The notes beneath the pieces were generated by a model, which saw only the letters and a program-made list of their open reading frames with translations, was not told where the DNA came from and did not search any database. From Saprospiraceae bacterium (lineage in GTDB: Bacteria > Bacteroidota > Bacteroidia > Chitinophagales > Saprospiraceae): 64,000 bases of DNA. Of this stretch, positions 16,510-37,316 are shown piece by piece; the stretch's first letter is position 1; every line of letters begins with the position of its first letter. The position numbers and the translations under genes are program-made. The stretch is taken from assembly GCA_028280415.1 (NCBI GenBank), contig JANQLV010000064.1, forward strand, positions 1 through 64,000, given 5' to 3'.

Positions 16510-16550
16510 AGTGGCTTGTATCTGTAAGGGGACGCAGGCCACTTTTTTTA
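16510..16550. terminator. Terminator between convergent genes
   Basis: Arms AGTGGCTTG (16510-16518) and CAGGCCACT (16535-16543) pair with one G-U, followed on the plus strand by seven T. It serves the DUF5916 gene; the minus-strand gene ends at 16548. Confidence 0.7.
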
Positions 16551-18287
16551 TTGCTCAGCATAGCTTTTTAGAAGTTGCTCCATGAATAATTGGTAAAAAT
16601 CTTCATGTCGGATATAATTTAACCGTTCCCGCTCCACTAACATGCCTTTTTGAAGCCCCGCTTCATAAAAACCTGTAATCAGAGAACTGTCCTTGCTGAT
16701 CAAATGCAATGGAGTGGCCGCGACTTCCGTTTTATCTACAATTTGAAATTCCATCCCCGGAGGTTGATGATCCCCGATAAGGATAAAAATGCTACTGGAT
16801 TCTTCCGATTCAATAAAACGACAGATGAGTTCTAGCTGATATTGAATAGCTGCCCGATACCTATCGAGGTCTGAGCCGACGAGGCTAAGTACTTTACCGG
16901 GCTGTTGCTTGTTTAATGCCTGCCAGTCGTCCAGTAAAGGCGGCGGCGTATACCAGGGAACATGTGATCCCATAGTAATAAAAAACATCAGTTTAGGGGC
17001 CCTTTCTTCCTTGCTGATTTTGTGGCGATAATATCCCAGACTATACTGATCCGGTATCCCACCCAATACGTCGTATTGAAACCCTTCATACTCAAAATCC
17101 TGATAGGTCCACCATTCATCAAATCCCCAATAACGGTTGGTTCGGGCATAGGGGATGAGCGAATCGGCATTGACATTACTGATGGAAGAAAGCCGATAGG
17201 TTTGATAGCCTTGCTGATTGAAATACCGAACGAGATGCGGGTAATTGAAATTTCGCTGGATGAGATCATTGAATTGAACCTGATTTTCAACTTTTATTCC
17301 GCTCATAAATGAGGTGAAAGCCAACCAGGAACGGCCACCTTTGATCGGAGAGATACTATAGGTCGAAGCCATTGAAAAACCTTTGTTTTCCAGGCGTCCT
17401 TGTATTTCCGTCATTTGTTTTCGGTAATCAGTTCGCAGGTCATCACTTTCAGTTGCAACGGTGCCATAAGATTCAATAAAAAGGAGATAGATATTGGGTT
17501 TTTCGGCGATATCCTGCTCTAAAAAGACTTCATAAGGGCTGTTTTGGATTTCCTTGTATTTGTCGGCACCATCCAGGCTTACACTTTTTAAAATATGATG
17601 CGTCATCCAGTTACTGGCAAGTAAATTCTGATTTTCCAGTTTATAACTGGAAACGGAAGTATAAACCAGGGTGAAAAGCCAGAGCCCCGCGAAGGATATC
17701 TGAGTCCATTTCTGAGCTTGTGTCTTTTCAAAGAATCGCAGTAATATTTTCAATAAATAAATAAAAAGACATCCCAAAAGAAACAGGATTAAAACAGAGA
17801 TTATATAAGACCAGACAGCACTGCTTTTAAGGCTATTGATAAAAATGGGTAGCACCTCACTCAGTAAAATATAGTCATTTCTGAAGGCAGGGATGATCCC
17901 GTAAAACTTCTGATTGAATTCAAAATAAATATTGTATACAAATAAAAAAACATAGGCGAAATAAAGCAGGCACCTGAGCCATTTATTGTTTTTTTTGAAA
18001 AAGAAAAACAGGCTTAAAAGAAACAGAAATTCTGCGTTGAATTTGAATAAATGATAATCGTTTTTGCCAAAAAGCATATGTATCCTTCCCGTCCAGGAAC
18101 CGGCTTCAATCGTTGAATCTTTCAGCCATCCGGTCAGATCGATTAGACTCACATAATTTTGGAAATAAAGAATACTATTGAGGAGTATGAATAAACCCCA
18201 GAATTTTAAAAATGACGATATGTTTATGTTATTGTTCAATTTTTTTAATTCTAGTCCTTCCACCTTGTCCCTAGGCAGGTTTGTCAT
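16548..18287 (-). CDS. LTA-synthase-like membrane sulfatase-fold transferase
   Basis: A 579-residue membrane enzyme of the alkaline phosphatase/sulfatase superfamily. I place the start at the ATG at 18287, which overlaps the stop of the upstream gene (TAATG); an open frame extends 18 codons further to 18341. The N-terminal third has about five membrane segments. The extracytoplasmic catalytic domain contains LLFIESYGT (metal-binding Glu), 'GGRSWLAFTSFMSG' around the likely nucleophile, 'TMGSHVPW' and 'LIGDHQPPG' (metal-binding Asp-His). Relatives transfer phosphoglycerol or phosphoethanolamine to polymers, glycans or lipids. Co-transcription with a CDP-alcohol phosphatidyltransferase suggests lipid or glycan headgroup modification of the envelope. 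The donor and acceptor are unknown. Confidence 0.83.
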   Translation of the reverse strand: MTNLPRDKVEGLELKKLNNNINISSFLKFWGLFILLNSILYFQNYVSLIDLTGWLKDSTIEAGSWTGRIHMLFGKNDYHLFKFNAEFLFLLSLFFFFKKNNKWLRCLLYFAYVFLFVYNIYFEFNQKFYGIIPAFRNDYILLSEVLPIFINSLKSSAVWSYIISVLILFLLGCLFIYLLKILLRFFEKTQAQKWTQISFAGLWLFTLVYTSVSSYKLENQNLLASNWMTHHILKSVSLDGADKYKEIQNSPYEVFLEQDIAEKPNIYLLFIESYGTVATESDDLRTDYRKQMTEIQGRLENKGFSMASTYSISPIKGGRSWLAFTSFMSGIKVENQVQFNDLIQRNFNYPHLVRYFNQQGYQTYRLSSISNVNADSLIPYARTNRYWGFDEWWTYQDFEYEGFQYDVLGGIPDQYSLGYYRHKISKEERAPKLMFFITMGSHVPWYTPPPLLDDWQALNKQQPGKVLSLVGSDLDRYRAAIQYQLELICRFIESEESSSIFILIGDHQPPGMEFQIVDKTEVAATPLHLISKDSSLITGFYEAGLQKGMLVERERLNYIRHEDFYQLFMEQLLKSYAEQ

Positions 18288-18982
18288 TACACTTGGAATC
18301 TGCCCGTCAATACTTGAGCAAAACTTTTTCCGAATGACCAAAGTACCAGAAAACTACTGATTATCAAAACGGGTAAATAAATGGCTGGAGGGCTGATAAA
18401 AGGAATAATTAAACTGAGCATCAGTATTACTGCAATTATTTGGGCAAAATAGTCTCTTGATTCCTTTTGCTTTTGGGGTTTGAACAATAATAATAAAAGG
18501 AAATAAAGGTATCTTAAAATAGCAATGAACATCAGCCATAATCCAACCTTGCCTTGAGTATAATGAATACAGATTATAGCATAAACATAAAAAGCGTCTG
18601 TTTCCATGTCAAAATAAGCGCCAAAATCTGAAATGCTGTTAAATTTTCTGGCCAAAAAGCCATCGAGGCCATCCAGTAATACAATGATTAGTGCAATCAC
18701 AGCCAGTATTTCACCGGAAAGTAGATCATGGGTATGAAGTAATAGGAATAAGAAGCTTAGGCGTAATAGCGTAATGAAATTGGCGGGAGAAAAGAGGAAG
18801 AGCAAATTGGCTGATTCACGAGCTTTCCAAATAAAAAGCACCACAAAGGAGATTGTAGCGCCAAATGAAATACAATTAATATTTTTGAAGCCAAGGAAAA
18901 AGAAACAGCTCATTAAAAGAATAACTGCGTGGGCTGTCATCCAACGCTGAATCCAGGGCATCGACTTATTTACTTTTATCAA
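18287..18982 (-). CDS. CDP-alcohol phosphatidyltransferase family protein
   Basis: A 231-residue integral membrane protein with the full catalytic motif D107-G-x2-A-R-x8-G121-x3-D125-x3-D129, in which the Asp residues bind the metals that activate the CDP-linked donor. Hydrophobic segments surround it (about 15-35, 40-52, 60-82, 92-105, 135-215). Such enzymes make phospholipids such as phosphatidylglycerophosphate, phosphatidylserine or phosphatidylinositol; the alcohol cannot be named from sequence. The gene overlaps its upstream neighbour by 17 bases and its downstream neighbour by 1 base, so all three are made together. Confidence 0.86.
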   Translation of the reverse strand: MIKVNKSMPWIQRWMTAHAVILLMSCFFFLGFKNINCISFGATISFVVLFIWKARESANLLFLFSPANFITLLRLSFLFLLLHTHDLLSGEILAVIALIIVLLDGLDGFLARKFNSISDFGAYFDMETDAFYVYAIICIHYTQGKVGLWLMFIAILRYLYFLLLLLFKPQKQKESRDYFAQIIAVILMLSLIIPFISPPAIYLPVLIISSFLVLWSFGKSFAQVLTGRFQV

Positions 18983-29850: not shown

Positions 29851-29881
29851 TTTAAAATCTTGAATGCCAATCTTACCTTTG
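29851..29881 (+). promoter_or_regulatory. purC promoter (TTTA-N19-TACCTTTG)
   Basis: The -7 box TACCTTTG is at 29874-29881 and TTTA lies 19 bases upstream at 29851-29854, three of four matches to the -33 TTTG. Transcription would begin near 29888, which excludes the in-frame codon at 29864 as start. Confidence 0.6.
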
Positions 29882-29905
29882 CGGGAAATAAAAATCACTG
29901 AGCTT

Positions 29906-30856
29906 ATGTCATTAGATAGCATCGCTATAGCGAACACGGACTTTCACTTTGAAGGACAGACAAACTTTTATCGCGGGAAAGTCAGAGATGTCTACACCGT
30001 TAATGGCCAACTGATTATGGTGGCTTCCGACCGAATTTCTGCATTTGATCATATACTTCCAAGGGCCATTCCCTATAAAGGACAGGTACTCAATCAGATC
30101 GCGGCACATTTTCTAAAAGCTACACAAGACATTGCTCCCAACTGGTTACTGGATACGCCCGATCCGAATGTAGCGATTGGACTGGCATGCGAACCTTTTC
30201 GGGTAGAAATGGTGATTCGGGGATACCTGGCCGGTCATGCCTGGCGTACTTATAGCTCCGGCGCCCGGATCTTATGCGGTGTTCCTTTACCGGAAGGCAT
30301 GAAAGAAAATGATCCTTTTCCGGAGCCTATTATCACACCGGCTACCAAAGCGGAAGAAGGACACGATGAGGATATATCCAGAGAAGAAATCATAGCACAA
30401 GGGATTGTGTCGGAAGAAGATTATAAGCAGTTGGAAGGCTATACACGAGCCTTGTTTCAAAGAGGAACGGAAATGGCAGCAAAGCGAGGTTTGATATTGG
30501 TCGATACCAAATATGAGTTTGGAAAAAAAGATGGCAAGATTTATTTAATTGATGAAATTCACACGCCGGATAGTTCCCGGTATTTTTATAAAGAGGGTTA
30601 TCAGGACAGACAGGATAGGGGAGAGCGTCAGAAACAACTTTCAAAAGAATTCGTACGGGAATGGTTAATGGCAAATGGTTTTCAGGGCAAAGAAGATCAA
30701 CTGATGCCGGAAATGCCGGATAGTCTGGTTGAACAAATTACAGATCGCTACGTCGAATTATACGAATATCTTACAGGTGAAGCTTTCGACAAAGGAGATA
30801 ATACGCATGTGCTTCAAAGAGTAGAAAATAATATAAAAAGTTACTTAAATCACTAA
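29906..30856 (+). CDS. purC: SAICAR synthetase
   Basis: A 316-residue phosphoribosylaminoimidazole-succinocarboxamide synthase, which joins aspartate to CAIR with ATP in purine synthesis. Conserved parts are 'YRGKVRDVY' with the ATP-binding Lys, '[22 protein letters not shown]' in parts, '[17 protein letters not shown]' and '[13 protein letters not shown]'. The start at 29906 is chosen because the promoter at 29851-29881 lies after the alternative start at 29864. Length is normal for the Bacteroidota-type long form. Confidence 0.95.
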
Positions 30857-31313
30857 GCGTATTGCTGTCGTTTTGACAAGGTGGTTTTGTGAAACCTTGA
30901 TTATTAGAATGAGTGAAGTCTAAGCATATCTTATTCGCATAGCCTTCACTGAATATTTTTAGTTCTCGGGCCAGGTTAATAGGAATAATTGATATTCGGT
31001 GCTCTGTGACCTCTGTGTCTTCTCTGCGAAACTCTGTGTCCAAAAAATCGAGAAATCAATAAAGATAAAAGCTGATGGCATTCAAAGCCCATCATTCCGC
31101 GATGATAGATGCTTTAGAAGTATTTTCTCAAATAAAACTGAAAACATAAATGACCGTATAGAAGTTTTATAGTATGGTATTGCGTTTTTCGGTATCAGAA
31201 ATTGTCCGCACCCCGGGAGACCTTAATGAAATAAGTCGAGTTAAAAACAAAACTGTGGAATAGGCAGAGCAGATCGAGGTCGAGAATACTAATGATGAAA
31301 AATTTATCGAATT
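30857..31313. other. Intergenic stretch of 457 bases before the NRPS gene
   Basis: It holds a short repeat (31002-31038) and otherwise no recognisable gene or RNA. It must contain the promoter of the NRPS-decarboxylase gene; no full consensus match is seen. Confidence 0.5.
31002..31038. repeat. Short CTCTGTG-type tandem motif
   Basis: CTCTGTG occurs at 31002, 31011 and 31032, with CTCTGCG at 31022. Clusters of this heptamer are, from memory, a widespread intergenic motif in several bacterial phyla; its role is unknown. Confidence 0.55.
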
Positions 31314-34300
31314 ATGAAAATAGAGCTGTTGTTGAAAGAATTGAAAGACAATAATATAAGTCTTGCTCTTAGAAACGGGAAATTATTGTGGAAACTACCC
31401 GAAGGGGGGATTGATGATAAACTTTTTAGCTTGCTCAAAGATAAAAAAGCGGAAATCAAGGCTTTACTGGAAAAAAAAGATAATTTAAAAAAGTACTTAA
31501 CAATTGGGAAAGCAGCTCAAATGGAAAGTTTTCCCCTGTCTCCTGCACAAAAAAGACTTTGGTCATTAAACCAGGTGAAGAATGGGGCAGCAGCTCATCA
31601 TATTCCCTTTGCAGGAAAACTTATTGGAGAACTGCATCTCGATCTTTTTGAAAAATCTTTCCGGTACTTGATTGAGCGACACGAAATTTTAAGAACGGTA
31701 TTGCGAAAGGATAAAAATCATTCGGAAACAAGACAGTTTATACTTCCCGTAAATGAAGCCGCTTTTAATATTGATTATTTAGATTTTTCTTTGAATCAAT
31801 CAGCTGATCAGGAGGTAAAACGTCAACTACAAAAAATGACCAAGGCTTTTATGGACCTTGAAAAAGCACCTCTTTTCCGAACCAGCTTAATTAAGCTTGC
31901 TAAAGAAGAGCACGTATTTTTGTTTGTGATCCATCATGCGATTTGTGATAGCCGCTCAATGGAAATATTTACTTCCGAACTTATCCAAACTTATAATAAG
32001 TTAAGGCATGATGTAGAAAAGCTGGAAACACCTTTGCGCATTCAATATAAAGACTATGTTTGTTGGCTGGAGGAAGAAAAGCAGACTGAAACGTATCGGA
32101 TTTCGGAAAATTACTGGCTCGATAAATTTTCCCGGCCGTCAATGCCCCTCAATTTGCCCAGTATTAAACGGCGCCCGCCCGTACAAACTTTTAATGGAAA
32201 CAGCCAACGGCATTCCTATACCCTTGAATTTACGGATCAATTAAAAAGATTTTCAAAAAATAATCGTGTTAGGCTTTTTACTGTTTTGATGGCTGGTATA
32301 AAAGCTTTGCTTGGCCGTTATTCCGGACAGGATGATATTACTATCGGTACACCGGTCTCTGGAAGGATTCACCCTGATTTGGAAAATCAAATTGGCTTGT
32401 ATGCCAATACGCTGGCTGTTCGAACTCAATTTAAGCTGGAAGATTCTTTTCAGAAATTGCTTCGGAAAGAAGAACAAAACTTGCTGGAAGCTCTAGAGCA
32501 TCAGGTTTATTCCTTTGAGCAATTGATAGATAAGCTTGATTTGAAAAGGAACTTAAACCGTTCGCCTCTATTTGATGTATTCGTCGCTTTTCAAGATCGG
32601 ACAAAACTTAATATTGATAAAGGCCCCGAATCTGTTAATGGCCTTTCTCTAGAAAAATACGATTTTAAAAAGAATGCTATACAATTTGATCTAAGCTTCT
32701 GTTTTTCAGAATATGATGATCGCTTGGAACTCGAAATTCAATACAATACGGATATTTGCGAGGATATTTTTATTTCAAAACTGTTTAAACATTTCAAAGA
32801 ACTGTTAACCGTATGTATTGCAGATACAACGATTCAATTAAATAAAGTTAATTACATTCCCTCCGAGGAGCAGGCTAAAATTTTTGAGTTTTCCAACAGC
32901 CTGAAAACAGATTATCCCAGGGACAGAAGCATTATAGAATTATTCGAAGAGCAGGTAAGCCTCAATCCCGAATGTGAAGCGGTTAGACTGGAGGAGCAAA
33001 ATTGGTCTTACCTTGAACTGGATGTTTTGGCTACAAAGTATGCCTGTGTCCTGCGAAAAGATTATGGCATCATGCCGAAAGATAGAGTAGTTGTTTCTTT
33101 AGAACACGGAGCTTATCTGATTCCGGTTTTATTGGCTATCAAAAAACTGGGAGCAGTTTATGTTTCTTTGGATCCTTCTACGCCTGGAAATCGAATTGAA
33201 TACGTACTCGAAGACAGTCAGAGCAAATTGTTTATTGACCAGTCTTTTATGGATGATCTTCAAGTTGCTGATTACAACTTTGATAATTTGAAATTGGAAA
33301 GGGCTTCGTATAAAGAGGCAGATAAAATTGAGTTTATTATTTATACTTCTGGCTCTACAGGGAGACCCAAAGGGATAATGATTAAGTCCGAGGGAGTAAT
33401 GAATCGCTTAAACTGGATGTGGAAAAACTATCCTTATTCCGCAGATGAAGTTTCCTGTGCTAAAACCTCAATTGGTTTCGTAGATCATATCTGTGAAATT
33501 TTTGGCCCCTTATTGAAAGGAATTCCCCTGGTTTTGTTTAAGAAAAGAGCAGTACAGGATACAAAGAATTTTATCTTCAGCCTGAATCAACATAAGGTAA
33601 GTCGAATCGTCCTCGTTCCTTCTTTACTACGAGAAATGCTTTTGTATCCGAAATTGTGTAAAGAGCAATTACAAAAATTAAAAATCTGGACAAGTAGTGG
33701 AGAAGCATTAAAAAAATCGGATGTCAAAAACTTCTATTCGGTTTTGCAAAATCCCGAAGTAAGACTTTTAAATATTTACGGCTCTACCGAAGTCACAGCC
33801 GATGCAACTTATTACGATACCTATGCTAAATTTAATAGCTATAAAAAATTCGAACTTTTTGATCTTTCTGCAAAGCGCAAAATTGAAAATCTGATCTCGG
33901 AGCATGCTGTTGCGAAACAAATCATCGATCAGCCATTATCCGAATTGATCAAAGATGATTTTTTTAAAGAGGTTTCAATTAAGGGACAGTTTTCGATAGA
34001 GGAGTATTTGACTTTTATCCGGTCCAGAATATTACCTAATGTAGTTAATTTAGGACACCCTTCTTTTATCGGGCACATGACCGGGCCGATTCCCGATATT
34101 ATTAAAGAGCTAAATGCTCTGGTAGTGGCCATGAATCAAAATCAGGTTAAGATAGAGACATCTTCTGTCGCAACTTTGATTGAAAAACAATTGATTGGCA
34201 TTTTTCATCAACTTGTATATAATCGATCCGAAGAGTACTATCGAAAATATACGCAAGATGCAGACCATGCACTGGGAATTGTTACGAATGGCGGTACAAT

Positions 34301-36038
34301 GTCCAATATTGTAGCCCTTAGTTATACGTTGAACAAACTTCTACAAGCCAAAGAGGGATTTGAAGGAATTGCTAAAGAAGGCTTGATTAGCGCTTTACAG
34401 GCTTATGACTACAAAAAGGTAGTTTTACTAGGCTCTAATTGGTGTCATTACTCTTTTGATAAGGCGCTTAAGATTCTGGGGCTTGGATCAAAGGCTTTTG
34501 TAGAACTGGATTATGAAGATAAAACCGAAGCTCAAATCCTGCAGGAAGTCACAGCCATTATATACAAATTAAAACAGGAAAAAGCTCTAATTCTTGGCAT
34601 TATTGGTATTGCCGGTACAACTGAATCCGGTAATGTAGAACCACTCGAAATTATCGGTAAAATTGCTCAACAACACGAGTTGCATTACCATGTTGATGCT
34701 GCTTTTGGAGGAGGTTTTCTTACCGATGATGAACTAAGACAGAAACTCAATGGAATTGAATTAGCAGACTCTGTAACGATTTGCGCACACAAGCAATTTT
34801 ATGTTCCGGTGGGATTGAGTATTTGTTTATTCGAGGATGCATCTCATGTACAGCATTCGGAAAGCAATAGCCGTTATCAGGCCAGAAAAGGCAGTTATGA
34901 TTTGGGAAGGTTTACCCTGGAAGGGTCAAAAGATTTTATGAGCCTGGTACTGCATGGTGCATTTAGTATTCTGGGGAAAGAAGGCTTCGGAGAAGTAATT
35001 CGCAATAATTATCACTCGGCTCAGATATTTGCTAAAATGATCCGGGAACGGGAAGAATTTGAATTGCTTTATGAACCGGATTTGAATATCGTACTTTACC
35101 GTTATCTGCCTTTAAGATTTAGAACCAAGCGAGATTATTCGGATGTTGAACTGGAGAGCATTAATAGACTTAATAAACAGATTCAGCAGGAGCAATTTAA
35201 GAGAGGCAATTCCTTTGTTTCCTATACTTCTGTAAAAAAGAAATCTGATGTTATTAATCAGGTAGTATTTAGAACTGTTTTTATGAATCCTTATACTACC
35301 CTAGAACATCTGGAATTGCTGTTGGACGAACAAGTTTCTATTGCCTATGAGATTGAAAATGGCATTAGAAGAGAAGCGATAGGCATTAACGAAAACATTT
35401 TGATCGGGCGTCCCATTGAAAATGTTAAAGTATATATTTTGGATGATTATCTAAATATTTTACCGATTGGGATGGTCGGCGAGATTTGTATCAGCGGGGA
35501 TGGCCTGGCTGCCGGTTATATCGGAGCAGAGGAACTGGATGCCAGCCGTTTTGTAGATAATGTTTTTTCAGAGGGAGAACGATTATATAGAACCGGAGAT
35601 TTAGGCAGATGGAAAGAGGATGGGAATATCGAATTTTTGGGCAGAAAAGATAATCAGGTGAAAATCAGAGGTAATCGAGTGGAATTAGGAGAGATTGAAA
35701 ATATATTGATCAATACGGAAAGTATTACCGGAGCGATAGTGATGGCTATTGAAAAAACGGATTCCGAAGAAAAAGAATTGGCGGCTTATTTTGTAGCGGA
35801 TAAGAAGGAAAAAATAACGGACCTGATTGCAATTTTGCGTCAGTCTCTACCGGATTATATGCTGCCTGATTATTTTATTCAACTAGATGGATTTCCATTA
35901 AATACAAGTGGAAAAATAGATAAAAAGGCATTACCTGATCCTCTGGAAGCGGGACAAACGCATAAATACAAAGTAGTGGCCACTGAAATGTACCATGCGG
36001 GAAAAAGTCGTCGCGATTTAGCTACACATTCCAAATAG
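31314..36038 (+). CDS. NRPS (TubC dock - condensation - adenylation) with an internal PLP-dependent decarboxylase
   Basis: A 1574-residue protein. Residues 1-57 resemble a TubC N-terminal docking domain. A condensation domain follows (about 70-520; HHxxxD at 207-212, with Ser instead of Gly after it). The adenylation domain begins near 535: A3 IIYTSGSTGRPKG near 676-688, A4 region with F722-V723-D724, A5 NIYGSTE near 821-827. About 840-1340 is a complete group II PLP decarboxylase: LGHPSFIGHMTG near 912, TNGGTMSN near 990, HVDAA with D1128, and the PLP lysine K1160 in AHKQFYVPVG. It resembles PanP-type aspartate 1-decarboxylases. The adenylation domain then resumes (GRPIENVKVYILD, A6 GEICISGDG, A7 YRTGDLG, A8 GRKDNQVKIRGNRVELGEIE, A10 NTSGKIDKKAL). 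The specificity code V-D-C-V-T-S-I-A-D-K points to beta-alanine. No carrier or thioesterase domain follows. The domain calls are firm; beta-alanine production and use are inferred. Confidence 0.9.
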   Translation: MKIELLLKELKDNNISLALRNGKLLWKLPEGGIDDKLFSLLKDKKAEIKALLEKKDNLKKYLTIGKAAQMESFPLSPAQKRLWSLNQVKNGAAAHHIPFAGKLIGELHLDLFEKSFRYLIERHEILRTVLRKDKNHSETRQFILPVNEAAFNIDYLDFSLNQSADQEVKRQLQKMTKAFMDLEKAPLFRTSLIKLAKEEHVFLFVIHHAICDSRSMEIFTSELIQTYNKLRHDVEKLETPLRIQYKDYVCWLEEEKQTETYRISENYWLDKFSRPSMPLNLPSIKRRPPVQTFNGNSQRHSYTLEFTDQLKRFSKNNRVRLFTVLMAGIKALLGRYSGQDDITIGTPVSGRIHPDLENQIGLYANTLAVRTQFKLEDSFQKLLRKEEQNLLEALEHQVYSFEQLIDKLDLKRNLNRSPLFDVFVAFQDRTKLNIDKGPESVNGLSLEKYDFKKNAIQFDLSFCFSEYDDRLELEIQYNTDICEDIFISKLFKHFKELLTVCIADTTIQLNKVNYIPSEEQAKIFEFSNSLKTDYPRDRSIIELFEEQVSLNPECEAVRLEEQNWSYLELDVLATKYACVLRKDYGIMPKDRVVVSLEHGAYLIPVLLAIKKLGAVYVSLDPSTPGNRIEYVLEDSQSKLFIDQSFMDDLQVADYNFDNLKLERASYKEADKIEFIIYTSGSTGRPKGIMIKSEGVMNRLNWMWKNYPYSADEVSCAKTSIGFVDHICEIFGPLLKGIPLVLFKKRAVQDTKNFIFSLNQHKVSRIVLVPSLLREMLLYPKLCKEQLQKLKIWTSSGEALKKSDVKNFYSVLQNPEVRLLNIYGSTEVTADATYYDTYAKFNSYKKFELFDLSAKRKIENLISEHAVAKQIIDQPLSELIKDDFFKEVSIKGQFSIEEYLTFIRSRILPNVVNLGHPSFIGHMTGPIPDIIKELNALVVAMNQNQVKIETSSVATLIEKQLIGIFHQLVYNRSEEYYRKYTQDADHALGIVTNGGTMSNIVALSYTLNKLLQAKEGFEGIAKEGLISALQAYDYKKVVLLGSNWCHYSFDKALKILGLGSKAFVELDYEDKTEAQILQEVTAIIYKLKQEKALILGIIGIAGTTESGNVEPLEIIGKIAQQHELHYHVDAAFGGGFLTDDELRQKLNGIELADSVTICAHKQFYVPVGLSICLFEDASHVQHSESNSRYQARKGSYDLGRFTLEGSKDFMSLVLHGAFSILGKEGFGEVIRNNYHSAQIFAKMIREREEFELLYEPDLNIVLYRYLPLRFRTKRDYSDVELESINRLNKQIQQEQFKRGNSFVSYTSVKKKSDVINQVVFRTVFMNPYTTLEHLELLLDEQVSIAYEIENGIRREAIGINENILIGRPIENVKVYILDDYLNILPIGMVGEICISGDGLAAGYIGAEELDASRFVDNVFSEGERLYRTGDLGRWKEDGNIEFLGRKDNQVKIRGNRVELGEIENILINTESITGAIVMAIEKTDSEEKELAAYFVADKKEKITDLIAILRQSLPDYMLPDYFIQLDGFPLNTSGKIDKKALPDPLEAGQTHKYKVVATEMYHAGKSRRDLATHSK

Positions 36039-36069
36039 AAATCAAATCGGCATTAAAGATGATTTCTTT
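36037..36069. terminator. Terminator-like hairpin after the NRPS gene
   Basis: AGAAATCA (36037-36044) pairs perfectly with TGATTTCT (36060-36067). It starts within the stop codon and lies between the convergent NRPS and dehydrogenase genes. Confidence 0.5.
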
Positions 36070-36110
36070 GCATCGGGGCTGCATTAAATTTATTATAGGA
36101 ATGCTGGAGC

Positions 36111-37316
36111 TTATTCCTTGCCTTTGAGATAATTTTCCAGATAAGCAAAATGACTTCCCAGACCCCGGTTTACAGCTACTGTTGCCCTTTCTATTACCGC
36201 GCTATTGTCCTTTAATAATTCCTCCAATATAGCGCTGATAAATTGCTGTCCGAAAGCAGTGGAGGCATCTCGTGGAAGTTCATTGGGAAGATTGTCAATA
36301 GTCATCATATCAATCTTGCCATCCTGATAAGCGTCGGTCTCCTGGCTGCTTACCGGGTCAAAACCAAAAACGGGATCGGCAATCGTTGATGCTTTAAGAG
36401 TAGATGGAATGGACGAAACGGGAGCGATATCACAGGTGACATCCGCAATGACCTTAATCGCAAAATCACCGGAATTCATATCGTCTATACTAAAAAATGC
36501 AGGAGCATTATTATCCCAATAAATGCCATTGATCATTATATCGCTGCATCTGTAAAAAGGAGCAAAGCTGCTTTCGAATAATTCCGGATGCTCATAAAAT
36601 GTTTCTTTATCAAAAGGGCTTCCATCTTTCCGTCTTGCATAATCTATACATTGGAGCTGGGTATAAACGGCTTTTGAGTATTGGTTTTTTAGATATTCTT
36701 CCGGACTGACTCTTTGAATACCCATATCGTCTAAAACCAGTGCGGCTCCTTTGCCAACGCGGCCGGTACCGGTGAGAACAATTCTCATTGGAGGATATTG
36801 CATACGCTTATAAATAGCTTGGGCCTCGGCATAATCCAGACAGTCTTTCATTCTTTTAAGCTCAAATAGTCCGGTTTTGCGACCATAAGTCATAATGCCA
36901 TTATGTGCACCGACCATACCAGCGAATTTCCCAAAGGCGATCAGACGTTGTCCCTTATTATTAGTCAATACCTCATAATCTATCAGGCGTATATTTTTTT
37001 CCACAATGGCCTGCAAAAGCTTTCGATTATATGATTGTTCCTTAATAGTATGAGAAAAGAAAAAATAGGTTTTATTGGGAATTAATTGTTCAATCGGAAC
37101 TTCCTTTACGCCCATCAACACATCGCGATCCGAAAGATCATCAGACATGGGGACGTTTAGAGTTCGGTAGGCTTCATCCGGAAAACAGCGGTTGGGTGAT
37201 GGTTGTACAAGTATATCGATTCCTCTTTCATTGATTAAGAAAGCACATTGCTCAGGTGTCAGTGGCACTCTTGAATCTGGTGGGATCTTTCCTTCCCGGA
37301 TTATTCCAATCTTCAT
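36111..37316 (-). CDS. Saccharopine dehydrogenase-like (lysine-forming type) NAD(P) oxidoreductase
   Basis: A 401-residue protein of the alanine dehydrogenase / saccharopine dehydrogenase (Lys1-type) family. The N-terminal domain has 'IGIIREGKIPPDSRVPLTPEQ' with the substrate-binding Arg (R5-x9-R motif region) and 'GVKEVP' with a conserved Lys, followed by 'YFFFSHTIKEQSYN'. The nucleotide-binding domain has LTGTGRVGKGAA. The C-terminal part contains 'VIADVTCDIAPVSSIPST', characteristic of saccharopine dehydrogenases. It may interconvert saccharopine and lysine plus 2-oxoglutarate; an opine-type substrate is also possible. It converges on the NRPS gene and has its own start region (candidate -7 boxes at 37381-37388 and 37392-37399), so no operon link is implied. 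Confidence 0.75.
   Translation of the reverse strand: MKIGIIREGKIPPDSRVPLTPEQCAFLINERGIDILVQPSPNRCFPDEAYRTLNVPMSDDLSDRDVLMGVKEVPIEQLIPNKTYFFFSHTIKEQSYNRKLLQAIVEKNIRLIDYEVLTNNKGQRLIAFGKFAGMVGAHNGIMTYGRKTGLFELKRMKDCLDYAEAQAIYKRMQYPPMRIVLTGTGRVGKGAALVLDDMGIQRVSPEEYLKNQYSKAVYTQLQCIDYARRKDGSPFDKETFYEHPELFESSFAPFYRCSDIMINGIYWDNNAPAFFSIDDMNSGDFAIKVIADVTCDIAPVSSIPSTLKASTIADPVFGFDPVSSQETDAYQDGKIDMMTIDNLPNELPRDASTAFGQQFISAILEELLKDNSAVIERATVAVNRGLGSHFAYLENYLKGKE

Follow-up and report, generated by a model that had tools for sequence, protein, structure and literature searches.

A complete PLP-dependent group II decarboxylase lies between core motifs A5 and A6 of an NRPS adenylation (A) domain in a Saprospiraceae bacterium, and four other genomes carry this fusion, joined at matching points. 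Judged by sequence comparison, this A5-A6 decarboxylase fusion is a real and conserved architecture with a known precedent. The protein is likely an interrupted A domain that supplies itself with beta-alanine made from aspartate, the copy in the window (the whole stretch of 64,000 nucleotides analysed here) being an orphan with a decayed carrier domain. In the intact relatives, the PanP-like insert, with PLP bound to the equivalent of K1160, would alpha-decarboxylate L-aspartate to beta-alanine, which the surrounding A domain would adenylate and load onto the following carrier domain for condensation, such that free aspartate would be decarboxylated first and adenylation would come after. The substrate of the insert should be an amino-dicarboxylic acid, because the A domain needs the carboxyl group that is left after decarboxylation.

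Layout and distribution of the interrupted module

The reading frame of the module (Table 1) has no internal stop. Pfam AMP-binding matches the protein in two stretches, the best at residues 544-833 (E 6e-58), and AMP-binding_C matches at residues 1460-1534. The A domain is broken off at about residue 837 after NIYGSTEVTADATYYDTY, some 15 residues past A5, and restarts at about residue 1360 with ILIGRPIENVKVYILDD, followed by A6-A10, so that A core motifs flank an inserted enzyme domain in a single frame, as is the mark of an interrupted A domain. The insert is matched by Pyridoxal_deC at residues 902-1264 (E 5e-41) and, nearly at full length, by the PanP model TIGR03799 (residues 850-1343, profile positions 28-522 of 522). 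The original prediction had read a full-length decarboxylase in an uninterrupted frame from the motifs TNGGTMSN, HVDAA and AHKQFYVPVG, which are found at residues 991, 1126 and 1158, and domain search (proposed there as a check) and alignment agree with it. The N-terminal TubC_N-like region, weak in the window, scores 38.5 bits in the Dokdonia relative introduced below. The HHxxxDG motif of the condensation (C) domain is not intact, reading HHAICDS (G213S) with HH and D retained. Searches for Rfam families and for tRNA genes gave 0 matches each in the window.

Table 1. Positions of the module, its parts and its surroundings in the window
Feature	Position	Strand	Remark
SAICAR synthetase (purC), left neighbour	29864..30856	+	present in three congeners
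Stretch lacking between purC and the dehydrogenase gene in three congeners	30857..36110		NRPS gene and about 460 bases upstream
Whole ORF, 1574 aa	31314..36038	+	(TubC_N-like)-C-A(N)-PanP-like decarboxylase-A(C); without carrier domain
TubC_N-like N-terminal docking domain, aa 3-52	31320..31469	+	weak: 22.3 bits, cut-off 26
Condensation domain, aa 72-523	31527..32882	+	Pfam E 4e-101
A domain, N-terminal part to A5 and about 15 residues, aa 531-837	32904..33824	+	pocket VDCVTSIAD
Inserted PanP-like group II PLP decarboxylase with linkers, about aa 838-1359	33825..35390	+	PanP model 850-1343
K1160 codon (AHKQF), presumed Schiff-base lysine for PLP	34791..34793	+	invariant in 13/13 aligned decarboxylases
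A domain, C-terminal part A6-A10, about aa 1360-1545	35391..35948	+	domain matches, alignment
Carrier (PCP) domain remnant, other frame	35995..36090	+	two in-frame stops; aligns with PCPs of relatives
AlaDh_PNT_N-domain dehydrogenase, right neighbour	36111..37316	-	present in three congeners

A scan of genome contigs recovered at least three loci spanning A4, insert and A6, in a Dokdonia MAG (L003), Flavobacterium sp. UGB4466 (L004) and Kordia periserrulae (L005), with best segments 54-62% identical to the window; this count is a lower bound, since short exact peptides were required. A sampled search of the class added a fourth relative (L040, from the Bacteroidia genome G347), 39% identical over A4-insert-A6. 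Each of the four matches the whole module in one open frame, over window residues 3-1540 at 50% identity (L003), 3-1556 at 49% (L004), 72-1541 at 41% (L005) and 3-1554 at 36% (L040). A Pfam carrier domain is present in L003, L004 and L040, and in L005 one is seen in the alignment only. The search for the same architecture in other genomes, which had also been proposed, thus yielded four fusions, and in the alignment of all five sequences the insert junctions coincide. The idea that two genes were mis-assembled, or that the gene is a chimera, found no support beyond the fact that the genome is in 81 contigs; it is rejected, because four other genomes share the fusion and its junctions, and its probability is practically nil. 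The C domain of the Kordia module is only 18-23% identical to those of the other fused modules, indicating that inheritance of the A-decarboxylase unit does not always include the C domain.

The fusion is apparently rare in the genomes sampled. At an E-value of at most 1e-60, with the best three or four candidates scored per genome, it was found in two of the 395 genomes sampled from the class (that of the window and G347), once among 396 from the order to which the window belongs (the genome of the window) and once among 301 from the family of G347 (G347 itself); scored in the same way at E at most 1e-80, the family of L004 gave two of 397 (G399 and G400, both already known). None of the three other genomes of the genus, one of them 75% complete, carries the fusion, the matches there being separate pieces, and among 72,556 plasmid records 474 match, with 0 spanning 80% of the query at one place.

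The inserted decarboxylase and the A-domain pocket

PanP converts aspartate to beta-alanine. TIGR03799 is by far the best decarboxylase family for the insert, at 450.8 bits for the whole protein (454.3 for the insert alone) against 123 for the next, L-2,4-diaminobutyrate decarboxylase; the score stays below the curated cut-off of 606.1, so that the insert is by its sequence PanP-like and is not filed as PanP. In an alignment of 13 decarboxylases (five fused and eight separate), K1160, D1128, H1045 and R1320 are among 67 invariant columns; by analogy with the family, K1160 is presumably the PLP lysine and the other three are taken to have roles at the cofactor. Identity between the window insert and the eight separate PanP-like proteins is 31-34%, with pairwise identities taken from an alignment that also holds five unchecked longest-ORF rows of the genus. 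When solved structures were ranked by sequence match, named diaminobutyrate enzymes were among the best (8zpi in first place, and 2qma), and group II enzymes named for Glu and cysteine sulfinate are listed as well. Aspartate is a plausible substrate, given the PanP-like insert and the beta-alanine-like A pocket described below, and this specificity is not assured, because the PanP cut-off is missed and diaminobutyrate enzymes are among the structure matches. The same missed cut-off, together with the related enzymes acting on Glu and cysteine sulfinate, would allow the insert to act on glutamate or another dicarboxylic amino acid, yielding GABA or a substituted beta-alanine; the distance from PanP to the next family and the resemblance of the A pocket to a beta-alanine code make this quite unlikely.

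A shift of the aspartate from position 235 to 236 marks a beta-alanine A domain, with VDWVISLADK as the reference code; a literature search, with most subscription journals outside its scope, did not find this code. Read by tblastn alignment to L004 and numbered from motif anchors, positions 235, 236, 239, 278, 299, 301, 322, 330 and 331 give VDCVTSIAD in the window, VDWVISIAD in L003 and L004, VDWVVSIAD in L005 and VDATFSIAD in L040. V-D at 235/236, S at 301 and A-D at 330/331 are common to all five fused A domains, each of which shows the shifted aspartate, and none has a positive residue at the nine positions. The fused pocket, as read from these codes, resembles the reference beta-alanine code.

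In G347, the gene before the fused module contains a second VD-type, beta-alanine-like A domain (L040:4227) that lacks an insert. One decarboxylase may serve two modules in this genome, and the insert-free domain beside the fused module fits a shared pool of beta-alanine. By analogy with AfcQ/AfcP, the main mechanistic rival is the reverse order, in which the A domain would activate the side-chain carboxyl of L-aspartate and load it onto the PCP, and the insert would then decarboxylate it to beta-alanyl-PCP. In the AFC-BC11 pathway AfcQ and AfcP are stand-alone partners, and the decarboxylation step comes after loading, AfcP working on carrier-loaded L-Asp according to the part of the source drawn on here (PMC12186527), and a decarboxylase within an A domain sits near the PCP. 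Such an on-carrier route is nevertheless improbable for the fused modules, as the nine pocket positions offer no positive residue for the free alpha-carboxylate and the neighbouring VD-type domain of G347 has no insert of its own; decarboxylation of free aspartate before adenylation is the preferred order.

Separate PanP-like genes were collected by tblastn against plasmids, and nine of the 15 records listed were examined. In seven of the nine the gene lies within an NRPS/PKS cluster (Nostoc, Gloeocapsopsis, two Mycetohabitans, Halomonas, Chroococcidiopsis and Paenibacillus); on a Cupriavidus plasmid it lies outside any such cluster, and an Aeromonas plasmid, without annotation around the gene, was not judged. 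A shifted-code A domain is present in six of these seven clusters, with the codes VDWVISLAN, IDWIISLAN, VDTVISFGD (twice), VDGTFSVAD and VDAVSSIAD. No VD-type A domain was seen in the 48 kb read of Chroococcidiopsis, where one A domain is partly readable and the next NRPS gene extends past the stretch. Among 38 A domains in 12 loci (matches of fewer than about 230 aligned residues dropped, and Chroococcidiopsis, L079, left out), 13 lack D235 and carry D236, five fused and eight unfused, all at loci with a PanP-like gene or insert; the remaining 25 comprise 24 with D235 and one with V-K. Since nearly all of these loci were chosen for a PanP-like gene, the PanP-free sample being the two A domains of L041, the counts indicate that PanP-like genes accompany D236-type A domains; the converse, that such domains need PanP, is not shown. 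On the plasmid of Paenibacillus polymyxa M1, the PanP-like gene beside the NRPS (L045:7776-9393) is divided between two ORFs that lie in different frames, and it appears broken. The plasmid of Halomonas sp. KG2 carries identical VD-code A domains at L077:31237 and 42324, about 11 kb apart, as if duplicated.

In the decarboxylase tree of 13 rows, the five fused enzymes fall on one side with support of 80/87, which is not decisive, and the L040 decarboxylase is 40-41% identical to the cyanobacterial separate enzymes compared with 36-37% to the other fused ones. In the A-domain tree, the fused A domain of L040 groups with its neighbouring A domain (96/93). The fused A domains are not a clade in the best tree, with a p-AU of 0.232 when they are held together, and a single clade of 11 fused and VD rows is rejected (p-AU 0.0013, in a test in which the VD-type domains L040:4227 and L077:42324 were mislabelled). 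Two Mycetohabitans VD-type A domains (L047:1327 and L078:19298) are placed elsewhere in this tree on a branch with 98/99 support, apart from the cyanobacterial and Bacteroidota VD-type ones. This placement suggests that the pairing of a PanP-like gene with a D236 A domain probably arose more than once, and the beta-alanine-like pocket itself seems to have done so too. For the fusion, the trees fit a single insertion with later transfer as well as two insertions at one site.

In group II decarboxylases, which are dimers, the active site lies at the interface, so that a decarboxylase within the module could tie two NRPS chains together and hand beta-alanine to the adjoining A pocket; such a dimeric module is a tentative extension and somewhat doubtful. 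Stand-alone fold-type I enzymes are described as homodimers or homotetramers in the part of the survey used here (Milano et al., 2013; PMC3870968). A structure prediction of the A-decarboxylase-A segment for four sequences was too poor to use (mean pLDDT 51.6, pTM 0.34).

The solitary copy in the window

The original prediction was silent on two properties of the window copy: its solitary site between housekeeping genes and the missing working carrier domain. In three congeners, the gap between purC and the dehydrogenase is about 110, 40 and 70 bases (by tblastn ends), compared with 5.25 kb, holding the NRPS gene, in the window. The empty junctions indicate that the gene was most likely gained in the lineage of the window, loss in the congeners being the alternative, and the copy is probably a solitary subunit gained by transfer. 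Repeats over 30500-36400 comprise 18 direct families and 13 inverted pairs, one of the latter being an imperfect pair (20 nt, 85%) with its arms at 30530 and 36304, each within a neighbour gene; they are taken for chance, and no clear target-site duplication was found in this repeat search. Elsewhere in the window, on the minus strand at 16548-18982, two overlapping ORFs, one with a sulfatase domain, match neighbouring stretches that lie on one strand in congener G003, which suggests a frameshifted or split sulfatase gene.

Past A10 the frame runs into YHAGKSRRDLATHSK and then a stop, and the carrier remnant in the other frame reads MREKVVAI, a stop, LHIPNRNQIGIKDDFFASGLH and a second stop. 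Its alignment scores with the PCPs of L004, L003 and L040 (58, 44 and 57) were each reached by none of 500 shuffles of the translated sequence. The first stop aligns with a W in L004 and L040 and with a C in L003, and the second, after GLH, stands at the position of the pantetheine serine in the alignments with L004 and L040. Neither the window protein (Pfam) nor the genome at that place gives a PP-binding match, the five carrier-domain matches of the genome all lying elsewhere, and the module has no carrier domain with a pantetheine serine. With its carrier domain decayed, it has probably ceased to function as a synthetase module in this genome. Outside this gene, the one condensation domain found in the genome is part of a hybrid synthetase on contig C52. 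This 3877-residue NRPS/PKS hybrid (L041:6264-17897), the other assembly line of the genome, comprises A, KS, AT, class III aminotransferase, C, A, thioesterase and sulfotransferase (650-862) domains, and two of the three congeners have matching open frames of 3888 and 3897 residues; the genome of the third congener is 75% complete.

Changes were counted at columns where the other four sequences agree. The C domain of the window has 14 such changes (L003 1, L004 3) and the decarboxylase 11 (6 and 7), compared with 4 in the N-terminal A part (2 and 6) and 4 in the C-terminal A part (5 and 2); for C, N-terminal A, decarboxylase and C-terminal A, the counts are 41, 6, 16 and 4 in L005 and 9, 44, 77 and 16 in L040. 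The end branch of the window decarboxylase is 0.37, compared with 0.23 and 0.25 for L003 and L004, and 0.50 compared with 0.27 and 0.32 in the 13-row tree. By these comparisons the window C domain looks relaxed, including G213S, and the decarboxylase slightly so, and the A parts do not. Recent decay and a changed role both fit these facts. A new, carrier-free job, as a soluble enzyme making beta-alanine and beta-alanyl-AMP or beta-alanine only, would agree with 1574 codons that are still open, with A parts that show no excess of changes and with the 14 changes of the C domain. We give it a small chance, as the decarboxylase has a mild excess, no partner gene lies alongside, none of the three congeners has a close orthologue by which selection could be measured, and recent loss of function accounts for the same facts. 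The window copy is probably decaying as a synthetase, with its A and decarboxylase parts open and their key residues kept.

Comparison with known systems

The precedent comes from jamaicamide, in which beta-alanine is involved. In the sections of their survey drawn on here, Milano et al. (2013; PMC3870968) report two Pyridoxal_deC domains in NRPS/PKS proteins and describe JamL of Lyngbya majuscula (UniProt Q6E7J8), in which Pyridoxal_deC is embedded in the A domain (A-PLP4-A-CP) and is classed as a diaminobutyrate decarboxylase whose function is not clarified, the embedded family having lost its N-terminal three-helix domain. The architecture, the intact frame and the absence of a chimera stand from the original prediction, whereas its suggestion that the case lies outside the known ones is not supported, JamL having been in print already. 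By this description, JamL and the window protein are alike in carrying Pyridoxal_deC inside an A domain; JamL is a cyanobacterial PKS/NRPS protein of the diaminobutyrate class, while the window protein is from Bacteroidota and PanP-like. Unlike the embedded family as described there, the window insert keeps most of the N-terminal part, as its match to the PanP model begins at profile position 28. No A-domain-embedded decarboxylase besides JamL appeared in the sources covered by our literature search, which left most subscription journals outside its scope.

A-domain-embedded decarboxylases are no one-off of jamaicamide, as Bacteroidota have a PanP-like enzyme at A5-A6. If the proposed reading is right, a PanP-like gene or insert together with a D236 pocket would be a simple genomic hint of beta-alanine, A5-A6 would be another insertion site of A domains, and the module would be a natural model of one that makes its own non-proteinogenic building block.

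The insert shares near full-length similarity and the same catalytic residues with PanP (TIGR03799), and differs from it in that PanP is a separate protein, in its 31-34% identity to the eight PanP-like proteins and in its score below the cut-off. A domains interrupted by a methyltransferase or an oxidase, at A8-A9 and other sites, are described in the part of the literature used here (PMC8795117). In these too, by that account, A core motifs flank the embedded tailoring enzyme; the window insert differs in being a PLP decarboxylase at A5-A6, proposed to prepare the substrate and not to modify a loaded residue. Ketoreductase inserts in A domains also exist. As in the proposed module, a PLP decarboxylase and an A domain jointly put beta-alanine on a carrier in AfcQ/AfcP as described, where they are separate proteins and decarboxylation takes place on the carrier. 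Among these systems the kind of fusion is already known, whereas four features appear to be new: the Bacteroidota family, the PanP-like class, the junctions at A5-A6 and the way in which insert and pocket match.
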